Assembly (NCBI GenBank): GCA_016841725.1
Contig: JAENYP010000002.1
Coordinates: 94,767 to 158,766 of the forward strand
Length of the DNA stretch: 64,000 bases
Source of the DNA: Thermincola carboxydiphila
Lineage (GTDB): Bacteria; Bacillota; Thermincolia; Thermincolales; UBA2595
Direction: 5' to 3'
Both the position numbers and the translations under genes were made by a program. Shown here one piece after another: positions 39,688 to 48,715 of the stretch (positions within the stretch are counted from its first letter, which is position 1; each line of letters starts with the position of its first letter). The notes below the pieces were generated by a model that was given only the letters and a program-made list of their open reading frames with translations, was not told the origin of the DNA and did no database searches.

Positions 39688-40599
39688 CTAAGCACCAAAT
39701 AATGCCTCCACAAATTCCGTGGGGTCAAATTCTCTGAGATCATCAATTTTTTCTCCCACCCCAACATACTTTACGGGGATGTTTAGCTCGGTTTTAATCC
39801 CTATAACTACGCCGCCTTTGGCTGTTCCATCCAGTTTGGTAAGGACAATTCCAGTCACTCCGGACGCTTCACCAAAAATCTTGGCCTGACTGATAGCGTT
39901 CTGCCCTGTGGCAGCATCCAGGACAAGCAGGACCTCATCAGGAGAATCAGGCAGTTCACGGGAAACCACCCGGAACAGTTTTTTCAGTTCTTCCATTAGG
40001 TTAGCTTTAGTGTGCAGCCGTCCTGCCGTATCAACTATGAGAATGTCAATATCCCTGGCTTTGGCGGCCTGTATGGCGTCATATACCACAGCGGCCGTGT
40101 CGGCGCCCTCACTGTGTTTGATAATATCGCACCCGACCCTGCCGGCCCATATCTGTAATTGGTCTATAGCAGCAGCCCGGAACGTGTCCCCTGCTGCCAG
40201 GAGCACCTTGCGGCCCTCTTCTCTGAAATTGTGGGCCAGTTTTCCGATGGTGGTCGTTTTCCCCACTCCGTTAACTCCCACGACCACAATTACCGCAGGT
40301 TTACTCCTAAGGTTTAAGCCCACCTGCTCTTCACCCATTATATCAGCAATCAGTTCTTTTAATATGTTTCTTAATTCAGCGGCATCATCAATTTTACGTT
40401 CCTTAACAATTTTCCTTAGATCCTCCACCAGTTCAATAGCTGTATTGACTCCCACATCAGCCTGAATCAGCAGTTCTTCAATTTCTTCATATAACTCTTC
40501 ATCAATCTTTTTGCCGCCACTGACAAGGGTTTCAATTTTGGCGACAAACCCCTGCCTGGTTTTGGTAAGACCCTCTTTAAGCTTTGAAAACAGTCCCAT
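39688..40599 (-). CDS. ftsY: Signal recognition particle receptor FtsY
   Basis: SRP receptor GTPase; with Ffh it docks ribosomes at the membrane. The 303-residue protein is a short NG form without the acidic A domain of enterobacteria. It has [18 protein letters not shown] near 108-125, [17 protein letters not shown] and [15 protein letters not shown]. It lies downstream of smc, as in most Firmicutes, but one gene removed. Confidence 0.97.
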
Positions 40600-40697
40600 T
40601 TGCGTTTCCCCCTGCCAATATACTGCAATTCCAATGATGGTTCTTTATAATCAAAAATCGGGTCAGGTTTTCACCTAACCCAAATATTGTAACATAA

Positions 40698-41837
40698 TCA
40701 CAGTCTTATCTCAATCGGTTTACACAAATTAGTATACTCCTGGGCCACGCCGAATTTACGGTTCCTGATTTCTGCTTCTTCCTGCGGGGTTTCAGCTTCA
40801 AAGAATTTCTGACCCAGTTCTTCATCTTCATCGGCAAACCGGTAAACATCATTGACAGCCTCTATTACCGTGGCGCCGCGCACCTTGCCGGCAGAATCAT
40901 GCCCAATGGCGACAATAGGGCGTCCCCAGGAACCGGGGCCGGCGGTAGCGTCTCCCATATGCATAACCCCGGTCCCTCCAGGGTGGGTATGCACAATCAC
41001 CGCATCCGGGGATACCTCATTGGCATATATATCCCGAAGAGATTTCCCCGAAATGTCCACACTGCTGGAAGCCAGCATACGCGACGGGACATATCCTATT
41101 CCCCCGACTACTATTTCCCCTTCCTGTACGATGTGGCCATTCTCATCTATTTTCCCCATGGCGGCAACTTCCCTGCCCTGACCTACTTCTGTAGACCTAC
41201 TAACAAGCTTTTCCGCAAATTCCCTGGAAATCGAATTCACTTTATGCTGCGGCAGTTTCCACTCTTTGGGGTTTTCCCGGGTATATGGAGGAAGTTCGGG
41301 TATTTCCGTCATCTCAAGCCTTACAGAAATCTCCAGGTATTTCAGGCTTAGTTCGGTGTTTTCACGCAATACCTCTTTTTCTTCCTCGGCTGTCCTGGCA
41401 GCAAGAATCCTCAATTCAACTTTCTCTGATTCAGTAGCCATATCAAAGTACTTTGCCCGGGGAAATACAATGCCCACCCCGGCCAGTTCACCGTGCTTTA
41501 CCCCGATGGCTATTACAGGCATATTGAAGAAGTCTGCAGCGGTGACATCTGTGATCAGGCCCGTTTTCCCCGGTCTGGTAGAAATGAAAACCGAATTATC
41601 CGGGATAGCTTCAAGACCTTCAATCACACTTTTCCCTTTCATCTCCGTGATATGTCCCAATAATTTTCTGAGGGGTATCCCGCTGAGCCCGCCCTCTGCC
41701 ACCGGTGTTATCCGGTCCACTATGCCCTGGTCATTTACGAAACCAAAACAGCCGGCATTACGCCCCTGGCTGATTTCTCTGGTAGTATCAACCAGCTTGT
41801 TAACAATGTAGTCGGCAATGCCTCTAACCTCTGTCAT
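40698..41837 (-). CDS. Tandem JAMM/Mov34-like protein of unknown function; first domain degenerate
   Basis: I do not know a named function. The 379-residue protein is an internal duplication. Residues about 7-125 and 204-330 align through EISQGRNAGCFGFV / EVGQGREVAAMGKI and the regions NSVFISTRPGKTGL / DAVIVHTHPGGTGV, ending PVIAIGVKHG / PIVAIGHDSA. The second copy has HTHP (His283, His285) and Asp296, the JAMM metalloprotease spacing HxHP-x6-x-x2-D, with His where Ser is usual. In the first copy these positions are Ser86, Arg88 and Thr97, so it cannot bind metal. ATG 41837 matches the start of the repeat; a TTG at 41924 would add a basic stretch. It sits between smc and ftsY. Confidence 0.7.
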   Translation of the reverse strand: MTEVRGIADYIVNKLVDTTREISQGRNAGCFGFVNDQGIVDRITPVAEGGLSGIPLRKLLGHITEMKGKSVIEGLEAIPDNSVFISTRPGKTGLITDVTAADFFNMPVIAIGVKHGELAGVGIVFPRAKYFDMATESEKVELRILAARTAEEEKEVLRENTELSLKYLEISVRLEMTEIPELPPYTRENPKEWKLPQHKVNSISREFAEKLVSRSTEVGQGREVAAMGKIDENGHIVQEGEIVVGGIGYVPSRMLASSSVDISGKSLRDIYANEVSPDAVIVHTHPGGTGVMHMGDATAGPGSWGRPIVAIGHDSAGKVRGATVIEAVNDVYRFADEDEELGQKFFEAETPQEEAEIRNRKFGVAQEYTNLCKPIEIRL

Positions 41838-41946
41838 ATTATATTTATTCCCCCGTGATTTTTGTGGGTCCAGCGGCAAACCCGCCTTAGACCCCCTTTT
41901 CTGCTTAGCTTTTCCGGGGGACAAAATTCATATGCGGTTAATTATT

Positions 41947-44900
41947 TCAGCTGACCTTGCCAATTTCATCACCAAGCTTCATGGAAACCAGTTTGGAAAC
42001 CCTGGCATCATCCATGGTTACCCCATAGATAACATCCGCAGCTTCCATGGTACCCTTACGGTGTGTAATCACAATAAACTGGGTGTTTACCGCAAACTCC
42101 TTCAGGAAAGCGGCAAACCTATCCACATTTGCCTCATCCAGGGAAGCCTCAATTTCGTCAAGCACACAGAACGGGCTTGGCTTTGTTTTTAGGATAGCAA
42201 ACAAGAGTGATATTGCTGTCAGCGCCCGCTCTCCCCCTGATAGCAGTGACAGGTGCTGGGGCTTTTTCCCGGGCGGCTGGGCTATAATGTCTATCCCCGT
42301 TTCCAGGACATTCTCACTGTCTGTTAATACCAACTCAGCCCTTCCTCCACCGAAGAGCCTGGAAAATACCAGGCCAAAATTCCGGTTGATTTCCTGAAAT
42401 GCTGTACTGAATTTGCTGGTCATTATCTGGTCCATCTCATCGATAACTTTGTAAAGGGATTCCTTTGCCTGCTCCATATCAGCATACTGTTTGGTCAGGA
42501 ATTCAAAGCGTTCCCTGACCCTTTCAAATTCCTCGATAGCGCCAATATTTACAGTTCCCAGGGCGGAGATTAATTCCCTGAGGTTCTTTATCCTTGAAGT
42601 GACCTCTCTCTTGTTCTGAATAACTGATTTCTTGAACAGGGCCTCTTCATAAGTGATCTCAAATTCTTCTCCCAGTTTGGTCAGGGAGTTTTCGATTTCA
42701 AATTCCAGTCTGGCCCTTTTCACATCTGAAGAATGAAGCTGTTCCCTGATAAGTCCCGTCTCCCTGGCCAGCTTTTTAATCACGCCTTCTTTTTCCATAA
42801 TGTGGGCCATGGCTGACTGCTTCTCGTTTTTACGTTCATTCAGCAGTTCTTCACCTTCACCCCTCTGCCTGCTTAAGTGCTCAACTGCCTCCAGATGGCC
42901 GGTGATTTCCTGCCGGAGCTGTTCCTTCAGGGAGTCAAATTCCATAACCTGGCCCTGTTTGCGCTGTACCTGGACCTCAATATCCTTGATGGCATCCCTG
43001 ACCCTGTCCATAATTTGGGCATAGTTGACTTCCTCCTGCTGCAGACCGGCCAGTTCCACCTTAATTCCGGTAACCTGCCGGGAAAGTTGGCTGCGTTCTT
43101 CTTCCCTGCTCTTAAGCCGCTTTTGCTGTGCCTCAATTTCTTTTCTGGTTTCGCCTTCTTTTGACTGCAGTTCCTGAAGACGCAGATGCATCTCTTTGAG
43201 GTTGGTTTGAACACTGCTCAATTCATTAACCAGATTGGTTTTTTCGTCCTCCACAAGATTTTCTGTGCTTTCAGCCCTGGCTTTATCATTTCTTAAAGTC
43301 TCCAGGTCCTTGTCAAGGGATGTCTTTTCAATCCAAAGCTCCTGAAGCCGGGATTCATTTTCCGCAATGTGCTGCCCACACTCATCGTATTCTTCCCTTA
43401 GAATGGCAGCCTGTTGCTCCAATTCGGCAACCTTGATTCTCAGGGTATCCCGCTGGCCCCTGGTTTCTGTGATCTCCCTGTTCCGCCCGAGAAGGTTGGA
43501 GCTTCCTTTTTTGTAGAACCCGCCCGTCATGGACCCCCCGGGGTTAACAACATCCCCGTCAAGGGTGACTATCTTCATGCTGTATCCGGTATCCCTGGCA
43601 GCCTGAGCGGCTGCCCTTATATCATCAACAATGATAACCCGGCCTAAGAGGTACTCAACTATATGTGAATACCTGGCTTCAGACTCCACCAGAGCGGAAG
43701 CCCTGCCGTATATACCATTGCCGGTAGAAACGGTTCCGTTTTTCTTCTCCTGATGAGGTTTGATAGTGTTCATAGGCAGAAAGGTTGCCCTGCCGAACCT
43801 GTTTTGTTTTAAATATTCGATAGCCTTCCTGGCATCACCGTCTGTTTGAGTCACAATGTGCTGGACTGCGCCTCCAAGGGCAACCTCGACAGCAGTCTCA
43901 TACTTTTTGGGAACATTGATAAGTTCGGCAACCACCCCGCAAATACCGGGACATTCCCGGCCTTTTTTGCCTGCCACCAACACTTCCCTGACACCCCTGA
44001 AATACCCCTCATAATCATTCTGCAGGTCTTCCAAAGCCTTGAGACGGGACGATTTATGGCCCAGCAGCTCACGATCCCGTTGCAGTTCCCCGGCCAGTTT
44101 TTTCAGCTGACCTGACAGTCCTGTTTTCCTCTCCTCAAAGCCGGTATTTTGGTTTTCCAGGCCTGCTATTGATTCTCTGACAGCCCCCAGTCCCGAATCA
44201 AGCTCTTTTTCCCTCTCTTTAATCCGGCTGTATTCTTGTTTCAGGGTATCACCCTGCTGCTCCAGATCATTTATCCTGCGGCCCAGGTTCTTAACTTCAA
44301 TTTCACCGGAATTAATTGCATTCCTGACTCCGGCAGTCTCATTTAATAAATCTATAATATCTGCTTTCTTTTCTTCGATTTTTTGCTGTTCTGCCACAAG
44401 CTCCTTTTCCAGCAGCAATAATTTATCCTCAGCCTGCTGCAGCTTTTTTCCGGTATCAGCCAGCTTGCTTCTGAGTTCCCCGAGGGACTGGGCATCACCG
44501 GCATGTCTGCTGCGCTCAGCCTCTTCTTTGCATTTCAGTTCCTCTATTTCACTGATGAGACCCTCTTTCCGGTTCCCGATATCCTGTAGTCTCTGGCGGG
44601 CCACCGTAATTTCGGCTTCCTTTTTTTCTATCAGGCTGCCGGTATCGTATATCCCTTTTTGCAGAGCGGCAATTTCTTCATCAAGTTTACTGTTAAGAAG
44701 TTTGTGTTCTTCTATCTCAGATTCGCGGTTTCTTAACCCGGTCTCCAAACCAATTATCTTTTGTTTCAGTTCATCATCCTGATCGTTAATTCCATCAAGT
44801 TTCAGTTTCTGGTCCTCAATTTGGTTAATTAATAGGTTTATCTCCAGTTCAACAAGCTCATTCCTGTATTCAAGGTATTCCCCGGCTTTTTTTGACTGCT

Positions 44901-45519
44901 CTTCAAGGGGACCTACCTGAGTACCCAGTTCAGATATGATGTCACTGATACGGACCAGGTTCTGTTCTGTGTCAGTAAGCTTTCTGACTGCCTGCTGTTT
45001 GCGGCTCTTATACTTTACTATTCCGGCAGCCTCCTCAATAATATTTCTGCGGTCTTCGGACCTGGTGCTGAGGACTTCGTCAATCTTGCCCTGTCCAATA
45101 ATAGAATACCCTTCCCGGCCGATTCCGGTATCCATGAAGAGTTCATGGATATCCCTCAGCCTGCAGGGAGACTTGTTAATCAGGAATTCGCTTTCACCGG
45201 AACGGTAAACCCTCCGGGTAACCGTTATTTCAGAGTAATCCAGCGCAAATATGGCGGTACTGTTATCAAGGGTCAGAGAAACCTCAGCCATCCCTACAGA
45301 CTTTCTCCTGTCACTGCCGGAGAAAATCACGTCTTCCATCCTGGCGCCCCGGAGGGTCTTGGCGCTCTGCTCACCCAGCACCCACCTGACAGCATCGGCA
45401 ATATTACTCTTACCGCTCCCATTGGGTCCTACAACAGCGGTAATGCCCGGGTTAAACTGGAGTTCTATTTTATCAGCCAGGGACTTGAAGCCCTGGACCT
45501 CAATTCTCTTCAGGTACAA
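41947..45519 (-). CDS. smc: Chromosome segregation protein SMC
   Basis: Condensin-type ATPase organising the chromosome. The 1190-residue protein has an N-terminal head with Walker A GPNGSGKSNIADAVRW at about 32-47, a long coiled coil, a hinge (about 500-680, with GRASALVESEARY and DGDVVNPGGSMTGG), a second coiled coil and a C-terminal head with the LSGGERALTAISLLFA signature and Walker B FCVLDEIEASLD. It starts at TTG 45519 after AAGGAGG. scpA and scpB are not in the window. Confidence 0.97.
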   Translation of the reverse strand: MYLKRIEVQGFKSLADKIELQFNPGITAVVGPNGSGKSNIADAVRWVLGEQSAKTLRGARMEDVIFSGSDRRKSVGMAEVSLTLDNSTAIFALDYSEITVTRRVYRSGESEFLINKSPCRLRDIHELFMDTGIGREGYSIIGQGKIDEVLSTRSEDRRNIIEEAAGIVKYKSRKQQAVRKLTDTEQNLVRISDIISELGTQVGPLEEQSKKAGEYLEYRNELVELEINLLINQIEDQKLKLDGINDQDDELKQKIIGLETGLRNRESEIEEHKLLNSKLDEEIAALQKGIYDTGSLIEKKEAEITVARQRLQDIGNRKEGLISEIEELKCKEEAERSRHAGDAQSLGELRSKLADTGKKLQQAEDKLLLLEKELVAEQQKIEEKKADIIDLLNETAGVRNAINSGEIEVKNLGRRINDLEQQGDTLKQEYSRIKEREKELDSGLGAVRESIAGLENQNTGFEERKTGLSGQLKKLAGELQRDRELLGHKSSRLKALEDLQNDYEGYFRGVREVLVAGKKGRECPGICGVVAELINVPKKYETAVEVALGGAVQHIVTQTDGDARKAIEYLKQNRFGRATFLPMNTIKPHQEKKNGTVSTGNGIYGRASALVESEARYSHIVEYLLGRVIIVDDIRAAAQAARDTGYSMKIVTLDGDVVNPGGSMTGGFYKKGSSNLLGRNREITETRGQRDTLRIKVAELEQQAAILREEYDECGQHIAENESRLQELWIEKTSLDKDLETLRNDKARAESTENLVEDEKTNLVNELSSVQTNLKEMHLRLQELQSKEGETRKEIEAQQKRLKSREEERSQLSRQVTGIKVELAGLQQEEVNYAQIMDRVRDAIKDIEVQVQRKQGQVMEFDSLKEQLRQEITGHLEAVEHLSRQRGEGEELLNERKNEKQSAMAHIMEKEGVIKKLARETGLIREQLHSSDVKRARLEFEIENSLTKLGEEFEITYEEALFKKSVIQNKREVTSRIKNLRELISALGTVNIGAIEEFERVRERFEFLTKQYADMEQAKESLYKVIDEMDQIMTSKFSTAFQEINRNFGLVFSRLFGGGRAELVLTDSENVLETGIDIIAQPPGKKPQHLSLLSGGERALTAISLLFAILKTKPSPFCVLDEIEASLDEANVDRFAAFLKEFAVNTQFIVITHRKGTMEAADVIYGVTMDDARVSKLVSMKLGDEIGKVS

Positions 45520-45907: not shown

Positions 45908-45942
45908 AAATAATATACTTTTAAAAAAATATCCCAAAAGGT

Positions 45943-46130
45943 TATTGGTGCCTCTGATGAGGAGAATAGGGAATTGGGTGAAAGTCCCAAGCGGTCCCGC
46001 CACTGTAAGTGTTAGCATGCCTTCAACAGGCCACTCGGATTTTTCGGGGAAGGTGAAACGCATGTAATGATCACGAGCCAGGAGACCTGCCATAGCCGTC
46101 AAATCGCTGCATTTCGTGGAATGATGCAGG
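45943..46130 (+). ncRNA. Cobalamin (B12) riboswitch aptamer
   Basis: The conserved series is present in order: a GGTGCC start, AGGGAATTGGGTGAAAGTCC, CGGTCCCGCCACTGTAAGTG, GCCACTCGG, GGGGAAGGTG, and the B12 box AGCCAGGAGACCTGCC at 46076-46091. It binds adenosylcobalamin in this class. A perfect terminator hairpin follows at 46148, so cobalamin binding should favour termination before cobT, whose product makes alpha-ribazole phosphate for cobalamin. Confidence 0.93.
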
Positions 46131-46652: not shown

Positions 46653-47693
46653 ATGAGTTTACTTGAAAAGACCCTGCAGCAAATTGGGGACTTAGACCGT
46701 GCCAGCATGGAACAGACCCAGGAGAGGCTGAACAATCTGATCAAGCCCCCCGGGAGCCTAGGCGTACTCGAGGAAATGGTCCTTCAGCTTAGCGGCATCT
46801 ATTGTGACCCTATGCCTAAAACCGGGAAAAAAGTAATCATTGTCATGGGTGCTGACCATGGTGTGGTCCAGGAAGGGGTCAGCGCATTCCCCCCAATGGT
46901 CACTATAGCCATGATGCCTACCTTTGCCGATGGAATTGCCAGTGTCTGCGTTCTTGGCAGGCATGCCGGGGCAGAGATTGTCCCTGTAGATATCGGTGTG
47001 GCCGGACCGGTAGACCACCCGGGGGTTATCAACCGGAAGATAAAATTAGGGACTGATAATATGCTCAAGGGTCCGGCAATGTCCCGGGAAGAAGCCGTCA
47101 AAGCAATTGAAACCGGAATTGAGATAGCCAATAATGAGATCAGCAAAGGGGCCCGGGTCCTGGGTACCGGGGACATGGGAATCGGCAATACCACCCCCAG
47201 CAGCGCCATCCTTTCGGTTTTGGGCGGATTCACCCCTGAAGAGGTTACCGGTCGGGGAACGGGTGTTGACGATAAATCCCTTTCCAATAAAGCAGTAGTA
47301 ATTCAGAAAGCCATTGAGTTAAACAATCCTGAAAAAAATGACCCTGTAGATGTCCTGGCAAAAGTAGGCGGTCTGGAAATTGGCGGCATAGCCGGAACCA
47401 TACTGGCGGCAGCAGCAAACAGGATCCCGGTTGTTGTTGACGGTTTCATCTCCAGTGCCGGTGCTCTGATTGCCGCCAGATTGGCTCCCCAATCAGTCAG
47501 TTTTATGATTCCATCACACTGTTCCGCAGAACAGGCTCACCGGACCATGCTTGAATGCGTAGGATTAAGGCCGATACTGGATATGAAAATGAGACTCGGG
47601 GAAGGCACCGGAGCCGCCCTGGCCATGTCGGTGCTGGATGCATCAATAAAAATGCTTCATGAAGTGGGGACCTTTAAGGATATCGGTATGTAA
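46653..47693 (+). CDS. cobT: Nicotinate-nucleotide--dimethylbenzimidazole phosphoribosyltransferase
   Basis: Forms alpha-ribazole-5'-phosphate from nicotinate mononucleotide and a benzimidazole base for the lower ligand of cobalamin. The 346-residue protein has IKPPGSLGVLEEMV near residue 31, the GDMGIGNTTPSSAI motif in the middle and the catalytic glutamate in LGEGTGAALAM near the end. AAGGAGG lies 7 nt before the ATG. It stands alone on the plus strand, about 470 bp behind a cobalamin riboswitch. No other cob/cbi gene is in the window. Confidence 0.96.
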   Translation: MSLLEKTLQQIGDLDRASMEQTQERLNNLIKPPGSLGVLEEMVLQLSGIYCDPMPKTGKKVIIVMGADHGVVQEGVSAFPPMVTIAMMPTFADGIASVCVLGRHAGAEIVPVDIGVAGPVDHPGVINRKIKLGTDNMLKGPAMSREEAVKAIETGIEIANNEISKGARVLGTGDMGIGNTTPSSAILSVLGGFTPEEVTGRGTGVDDKSLSNKAVVIQKAIELNNPEKNDPVDVLAKVGGLEIGGIAGTILAAAANRIPVVVDGFISSAGALIAARLAPQSVSFMIPSHCSAEQAHRTMLECVGLRPILDMKMRLGEGTGAALAMSVLDASIKMLHEVGTFKDIGM

Positions 47694-47809: not shown

Positions 47810-48715
47810 TTAACTGACCCGATATCTAGCAGGACCTTTAAATACTTCACGAACATGCCAATTTACATAACTTTGTTTTGGTTGATAATCGGGATGTATC
47901 GGTGAACGGATAAATTGTCCATGATATCTCATCAACCATTCTTGGAAACCACTGCTGCCATTTGCTTCTTCTGCGACTGCTAACTCCCTGGAATCTGTAA
48001 TAGTAAATACACCCCGGTCAAACATTTTATGATGCATGGCACATAAAGCAATACCATTTTCTTCACTATCAGGACCGCCAGCCTGATGCCACTTAATATG
48101 AGCTGCTTCGACTGCAACTAAGTTATTGCCCAATCTCACGTTAAATCCACATACAGCGCAACTATATTCGTAAGCCCGTAACACCTTTTCTCTGAATTTA
48201 GGGTCTCTAAATTTTGTACCCCCAGAATCATGTCCTTCGAAACCAGTAACCCCAGAATTAAAATCAAGTCCCACTGCCGCTATTATGTCTTCATGGATAG
48301 TTTCAGGAAAATGACTGTATAATACCATCTTTCCAAGTTCATATACTAAAGACGGATTATTATGTAATAGTTCAAACACTTCGTCATTAAATCCTCCTGA
48401 AATCTTATGCTTTAATAACCAGGAATTATTAATGTGCACAGATTTAATATCCGAATTTAAATTCCAAATGCCATCTCTTGTCAATCTAACAAATGGCTCT
48501 TCTGGATGATAAGACTGCCTCTGAGGACCAAACTCTTTTAGTAAATTGGTTATAGGTTCCCGTAGTTCTTCATAGCAAAAAAACCTAGCACCTTCGTTCT
48601 GCAACTGTCCAAGTGCATATAAAATTAAGAGAGGCTTATGAGGGGCTCTTTGATCACCTTTCTTCCATATACTGAGATTATTAATTTTTTCTTTTAACTG
48701 TTTAGAATCCATCAT
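47810..48715 (-). CDS. HNH restriction endonuclease, probably specific for phosphorothioate DNA (type IV)
   Basis: A 301-residue protein of the ScoMcrA/SprMcrA-like group. The N-terminal domain (about 1-150) has WKKGDQRAPHKPLLILYALG and FGPQRQSYHPEEPFVRL, matching the sulfur-binding domain that recognises phosphorothioate-modified DNA. The C-terminal HNH nuclease has CAVCG (186-190), EAAHIKWH (203-210), Asn220 and CAMHH (225-229), with no catalytic residue missing. Such enzymes cut DNA modified by Dnd systems. No dnd or other restriction genes are nearby. It looks more AT-rich than its neighbours and lies in a repeat-rich interval, both pointing to transfer. Confidence 0.8.
   Translation of the reverse strand: MMDSKQLKEKINNLSIWKKGDQRAPHKPLLILYALGQLQNEGARFFCYEELREPITNLLKEFGPQRQSYHPEEPFVRLTRDGIWNLNSDIKSVHINNSWLLKHKISGGFNDEVFELLHNNPSLVYELGKMVLYSHFPETIHEDIIAAVGLDFNSGVTGFEGHDSGGTKFRDPKFREKVLRAYEYSCAVCGFNVRLGNNLVAVEAAHIKWHQAGGPDSEENGIALCAMHHKMFDRGVFTITDSRELAVAEEANGSSGFQEWLMRYHGQFIRSPIHPDYQPKQSYVNWHVREVFKGPARYRVS

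Follow-up and report, generated by a model that had tools for sequence, protein, structure and literature searches.

A predicted tandem JAMM-fold protein with one degenerate and one conserved putative metal site, encoded between smc and ftsY in Bacillota

Pairs of JAMM-fold proteins with one dead and one live member play a central part in the proteasome lid, the COP9 signalosome, and BRISC, where the two are separate proteins within large eukaryotic complexes. BRCC36-KIAA0157/Abraxas, Rpn11-Rpn8, and CSN5-CSN6 each combine one live with one dead unit, and the same combination is predicted for a protein, here called X, of Thermincola carboxydiphila. The DNA analyzed, hereafter the window, is a stretch of 64,000 nucleotides from contig JAENYP010000002.1. 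X differs from the BRCC36-KIAA0157 type in being one chain that contains a duplicated pair, in being bacterial, in carrying histidine in place of the motif serine, and in having no sequence-level match. The archaeal JAMM proteases PfJAMM1 and AfJAMM have E, HxH, and D residues spaced equally to those of the C-terminal half of X, but they are single-domain proteins with a catalytic serine, at about 12% identity. Bacterial JAMM-fold proteins of the Prok-JAB (Mec/QbsD-type) and RadC families have an HxHP in register with that of X but keep the serine (HSHPxTPxRPSxxD and HNHPSGDPxPSxxD, respectively). The C-terminal half has structural matches to bacterial Ubl systems that include a JAMM deconjugase (BubCD, and the 8tyx Ubl-deubiquitinase), but the constant neighbors of X are smc and ftsY. 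No account of a single-chain live/dead JAMM layout next to smc turned up in a search of the open literature, and, judged from its sequence and model, X appears to be new in layout: a live/dead pair of the kind familiar from eukaryotic de-ubiquitinating complexes, within a single bacterial chain and with an altered active site.

The 379 amino acid X is encoded on the minus strand at window positions 40698 to 41837, with its ATG at 41837 and its stop codon at 40700-40698. The ORF was judged to be real, and it has full-length homologues, 50-92% identical, in other Bacillota. An alternative, longer form would start from a TTG at 41924, but the homologues instead start near the ATG at 41837. Its upstream neighbor is smc (41947 to 45519, minus strand) and its downstream neighbor is ftsY (39688 to 40599, minus strand), both of which are conserved in nearly all loci of the family. 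An earlier note on this DNA, which placed a tandem JAMM-like protein between smc and ftsY, is confirmed with corrections. X has no match among the models of Pfam, NCBIfam, PHROGs, or PADLOC, and searches of the PDB with X, both by sequence and by profile, gave only chance matches. The family is unnamed in the databases searched.

X is internally duplicated. With residues 1-195 as one half and 196-379 as the other, blastp aligned residues 3-176 with the C-terminal half in 180 columns at 27% identity (E 3e-19), and a profile comparison of the halves by hhalign gave 99.8% over 174 columns. The earlier note was right that the halves align, but its figure of about 115 residues for each was too low, the homology extending over about 174. 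The N-terminal half, residues 1-176 (41310 to 41837, minus strand), is assigned as a pseudo-JAMM (MPN- like) unit from its homology to the C-terminal half and its variable metal positions, and the C-terminal half, residues 199-379 (40701 to 41243, minus strand), is JAMM-like by its own model and Foldseek, with the predicted metal ligands intact. Mean pairwise identity across the family is 65% for the C-terminal half versus 54% for the N-terminal half. In all members X is a single ORF without internal stops, and none has it split into separate polypeptides.

An AlphaFold2 model of the whole of X, built with 17 sequences, had a pLDDT of 93.3 and a pTM of 0.89, and the C-terminal half modeled alone had a pLDDT of 86.6. 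The best 50 PDB matches found by Foldseek were all JAMM/MPN proteins for either model; the top match of the whole protein had an E-value of 3.3e-3, and that of the C-terminal half was PfJAMM1 (E 7.5e-4, probability 1.00), followed by Rpn8-Rpn11, BubCD, CSN5, and BRCC36. The fold match is remote, with marginal E-values, TM-scores of 0.31-0.43 for the C-terminal half, and an rmsd of at least 5 Å. Matches in a viral library included proteins named as ubiquitin-like, as a proteasome regulatory subunit, and as RadC/JAB. In the model, the HxH closes the strand 279-286 and D296 begins the helix 294-304, a predicted placement that resembles that of the H-strand and D-helix in BRCC36 (PMC4579573). No curated JAMM profile of Pfam or NCBIfam matched X, no JAMM model matched its relatives, and hhalign comparisons of the C-terminal half with the Prok-JAB and RadC profiles were non-significant (probability 1-11%), with the HxHP in register. 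This lack of a sequence-profile match to any JAMM family could be taken to mean that X is not a JAMM protein at all and that its spacing and fold matches are coincidental, and the same reading might draw on KH_2 matches in four members. These last (E about 1e-3, in relatives L026, L027, L029, and L030, residues 55-103, on the PGKTGIIVGTGG stretch) are below the curated Pfam cut-off, fall in the N-terminal half, itself homologous to the C-terminal half, and conflict with the fold; the resemblance was judged to be chance and a KH_2 identity was rejected. Coincidence is made very improbable by the best 50 matches of two models being all JAMM/MPN and by invariant motif positions at the right spacing. 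The earlier note had proposed that its reading be dropped if the fold proved unlike JAMM or if a profile placed the family in another fold; both tests were run and neither went against that reading. By the tests run, a predicted JAMM fold for X is supported, as is the interpretation given in the note.

The JAMM motif is EXnHS/THX7SXXD (PMC300881). The C-terminal half of X has the glutamate, the histidine pair, and the aspartate correctly spaced, as HTHX7[S>H]XXD. Conservation at the site was scored over 43 sequences: the window protein and 42 rows taken from loci, one of these rows being that of the window itself. Over this set, E223, H283, T284, H285, P286, H293, and D296 were invariant (43/43), as were G287, G290, M292, A299, P301, W304, G305, and R306 around the site. 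E223, the predicted general base, lies in the E-loop within QGRE (41169 to 41171, minus strand); the predicted zinc ligands of H283-T284-H285 (40983 to 40991, minus strand) are at the end of the strand, and the predicted third ligand, D296 (40950 to 40952, minus strand), is at the start of the helix. H293 (40959 to 40961, minus strand) occupies the position of the motif serine, which is replaced by histidine in every sequence. The HxHP and aspartate (283, 285, and 296) and the histidine in place of serine that the earlier note had reported are therefore general to the 43 sequences, and E223, which it did not mention, is present and invariant as well. Since it lacks the motif serine and has no match to a JAMM profile, X is not classed here as a canonical MPN+ member.

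The corresponding positions of the N-terminal half (27, 86, 88, and 97) vary across the same 43 sequences. At N27 (41757 to 41759, minus strand), the counterpart of E223, the family has N, S, G, P, A, or T, with E only once, and at S86-T87-R88 (41574 to 41582, minus strand), the counterpart of H283-T284-H285 in the alignment of the halves, the ligands are lost. The counterpart of D296 is D97 (41547 to 41549, minus strand) in the gapped BLAST alignment of the halves, which contains a two-residue gap. Of the serine, arginine, and threonine that the earlier note had placed at these sites, Ser86 and Arg88 stand but the threonine does not, the gapped alignment giving Asp97, the usual residue there; its broader claim of one dead and one apparently live site holds, in that the asymmetry is kept over the 43 sequences. 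Arg or Lys at position 88 is always accompanied by Asp or Glu at position 97 (26/26), versus 6/17 otherwise (Fisher p 2e-6, with phylogeny ignored); the association is partly phylogenetic. In the pseudo-DUB KIAA0157, Cys101 and Arg103 replace the zinc-binding histidine pair while the aspartate is retained, and a compensating Arg103-Asp115 interaction was suggested by the authors (PMC4579573). Arg88 and Asp97 of X resemble this pair in being an arginine and an aspartate at lost metal positions. A further likeness is that BRCC36 and KIAA0157 each have two C-terminal helices, forming a bundle, and that the AlphaFold2 model predicts two long C-terminal helices for each half of X (128-146 and 150-170; 329-345 and 351-370). 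The resemblance to eukaryotic JAMM dimers pointed out in the earlier note is thereby extended to the helices and to the Arg-Asp pair. Model confidence over residues 287-306, the S-loop/D-helix region, dropped from 88-96 in whole X to 56-61 without the N-terminal half, in line with a scaffold role, though this may be a modeling artefact. X would appear to function as MPN+/MPN- pairs do, and the N-terminal half is most simply read as a built-in MPN- partner.

The duplication, the predicted JAMM fold, the invariant live site, the degenerate dead site, and the smc-X-ftsY position are supported by computation, and the fold and architecture are well supported. We infer, from sequence and model, an enzymatic activity, with zinc binding, catalysis, a role for H293, and scaffolding. 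The reading that we favor, and hold to be reasonably probable, is that X is a single-chain MPN+/MPN- metallo-(iso)peptidase in which the dead half serves as scaffold and His293 is equivalent to His231 of thermolysin. H283, H285, and D296 of the C-terminal half would hold Zn, E223 would activate water, and H293, in replacing the JAMM serine, would stabilize the tetrahedral intermediate as thermolysin His231 does. Histidine at the serine position is chemically sensible because the hydroxyl of the AfJAMM serine (S77) sits where the thermolysin His231 imidazole sits, beside the oxyanion hole (PMC300881). The N-terminal half would have arisen by duplication and lost its metal site, often with the Arg88-Asp97 pair instead, and would serve as an internal scaffold, keeping the live half's S-loop and D-helix ordered in the way that BRCC36 is supported by KIAA0157/Abraxas. 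The substrate would be a cytosolic protein or peptide conjugate.

The general-base glutamate of JAMM proteins is not a metal ligand, and its retention in X argues for catalysis over zinc storage. The invariance of this residue in the C-terminal half (43/43) and its loss from the N-terminal half leave it distinctly unlikely that X is a metal-binding but non-catalytic JAMM-fold protein, with structural zinc and a tandem that serves as a binding scaffold, even though X is missing the serine that Csn5 needs (S128A abolishes activity; PMC300881) and zinc also has a scaffolding role in BRCC36 (PMC4579573). A doubtful, though less improbable, alternative is that X is a JAMM-fold hydrolase of a non-protein substrate, in which the live half would act with the same metal site on a peptide of the cell wall or on a small molecule, by chemistry of the amidase or deaminase type and with H293 tuned to that substrate. 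The absolute change of serine to histidine is in keeping with this, as are the invariant residues around the site, which suggest a specific pocket, the likeness of the JAMM fold to cytidine deaminase (PMC300881), and the separate, canonical JAMM-E1-Ubl cluster already present in the same genome; however, the structural matches listed are all protease-type or MPN- members, and the constant neighbors are smc and ftsY, with no biosynthetic neighbor conserved in the family. The single-chain metallo-(iso)peptidase reading can also be carried further, to a zinc-less duplicated half that activates the live half, evolved apart from the eukaryotic pairs and with a thermolysin-like histidine, in an enzyme that deconjugates or processes proteins as part of a bacterial modification system still to be discovered; we regard this extension as unlikely. 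If the favored reading is true, a small single-chain bacterial pair would offer a simple system for how a pseudo-enzyme half turns on a JAMM site, would also suit the question of whether histidine can replace the catalytic serine, and would give part of the Bacillota a further protease-like family, as yet without a name, with a fixed place next to smc and ftsY.

Of 61 related genomes, 20 carry a full-length homologue of X, as do 35 of the 398 genomes sampled from the phylum, at one copy per genome; carriers include Thermincola, Carboxydocella, and members of the Halanaerobiales (among them Orenia, Natroniella, and Halonatronum). Beyond the Bacillota, the search was a low-sensitivity peptide scan with one query, together with phages, plasmids, and viral contigs, and no relatives were found in these last three. 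Across loci L001-L063, ftsY follows X in all, and smc precedes it except in the loci of Carboxydocella, in which a query with smc from the window had no match within the stretch examined. The sequence divergences of X and FtsY are correlated (Spearman 0.72; 861 pairs, not independent of one another), which is consistent with mainly vertical descent. In most of the X-negative genomes in which smc was seen, smc adjoins ftsY, mostly with a gap of about 16-144 bp, so that X has either entered or left a gene order that was already in place. Its position beside smc and ftsY therefore says little on function, and the neighborhood is weak evidence in that respect. A link of X to sporulation was considered and rejected as uninformative, Spo0A being present in 35/35 X genomes but also in 312/363 of the others sampled. 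Elsewhere in the same genome, Prok-JAB, ThiF, and ThiS genes are adjacent (G000:C31:102365-103742), a Mec-like JAMM-E1-Ubl cluster apart from X. Because that cluster has a separate Prok-JAB, X is probably not the protease of the ThiF/ThiS system; no E1 or ThiS-type Ubl match was found beside X in its own genome.

By consensus match, a promoter-like element whose -10 is of the extended type (TTGAGA-17-TACAAT) lies in the gap between X and ftsY, and after it come a hairpin and a run of T (the whole at 40656 to 40714, minus strand). The site reads TGTTACAAT in the window and is TATGNTAAAATA-like in relatives (e.g., L010:2657, L008:2654, and L018:2648), and the hairpin directly after it keeps its arms, GGTTAAG(G)...(C)CTTAACC, with a variable loop. 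The strict site-plus-hairpin form was found in the X-ftsY gap only, at 24 loci, some from the same genome; it was absent from the X-negative ftsY loci and the Halanaerobiales examined, and the element has no Rfam match. It is probably either a promoter of ftsY whose leader forms a hairpin or an smc-X terminator, and, given the promoter-like site with its hairpin and T run, transcription of ftsY may be independent of that of smc-X. Two other features of the window were recorded. An HNH-nuclease-like protein is encoded at 47810-48715 (minus strand), matching PADLOC HNH and type II restriction models (E 1.3e-18), and an ordinary cobalamin riboswitch (RF00174, 108.8 bits) lies at 45928-46108 (plus strand), upstream of a cobT-like gene at 46653.
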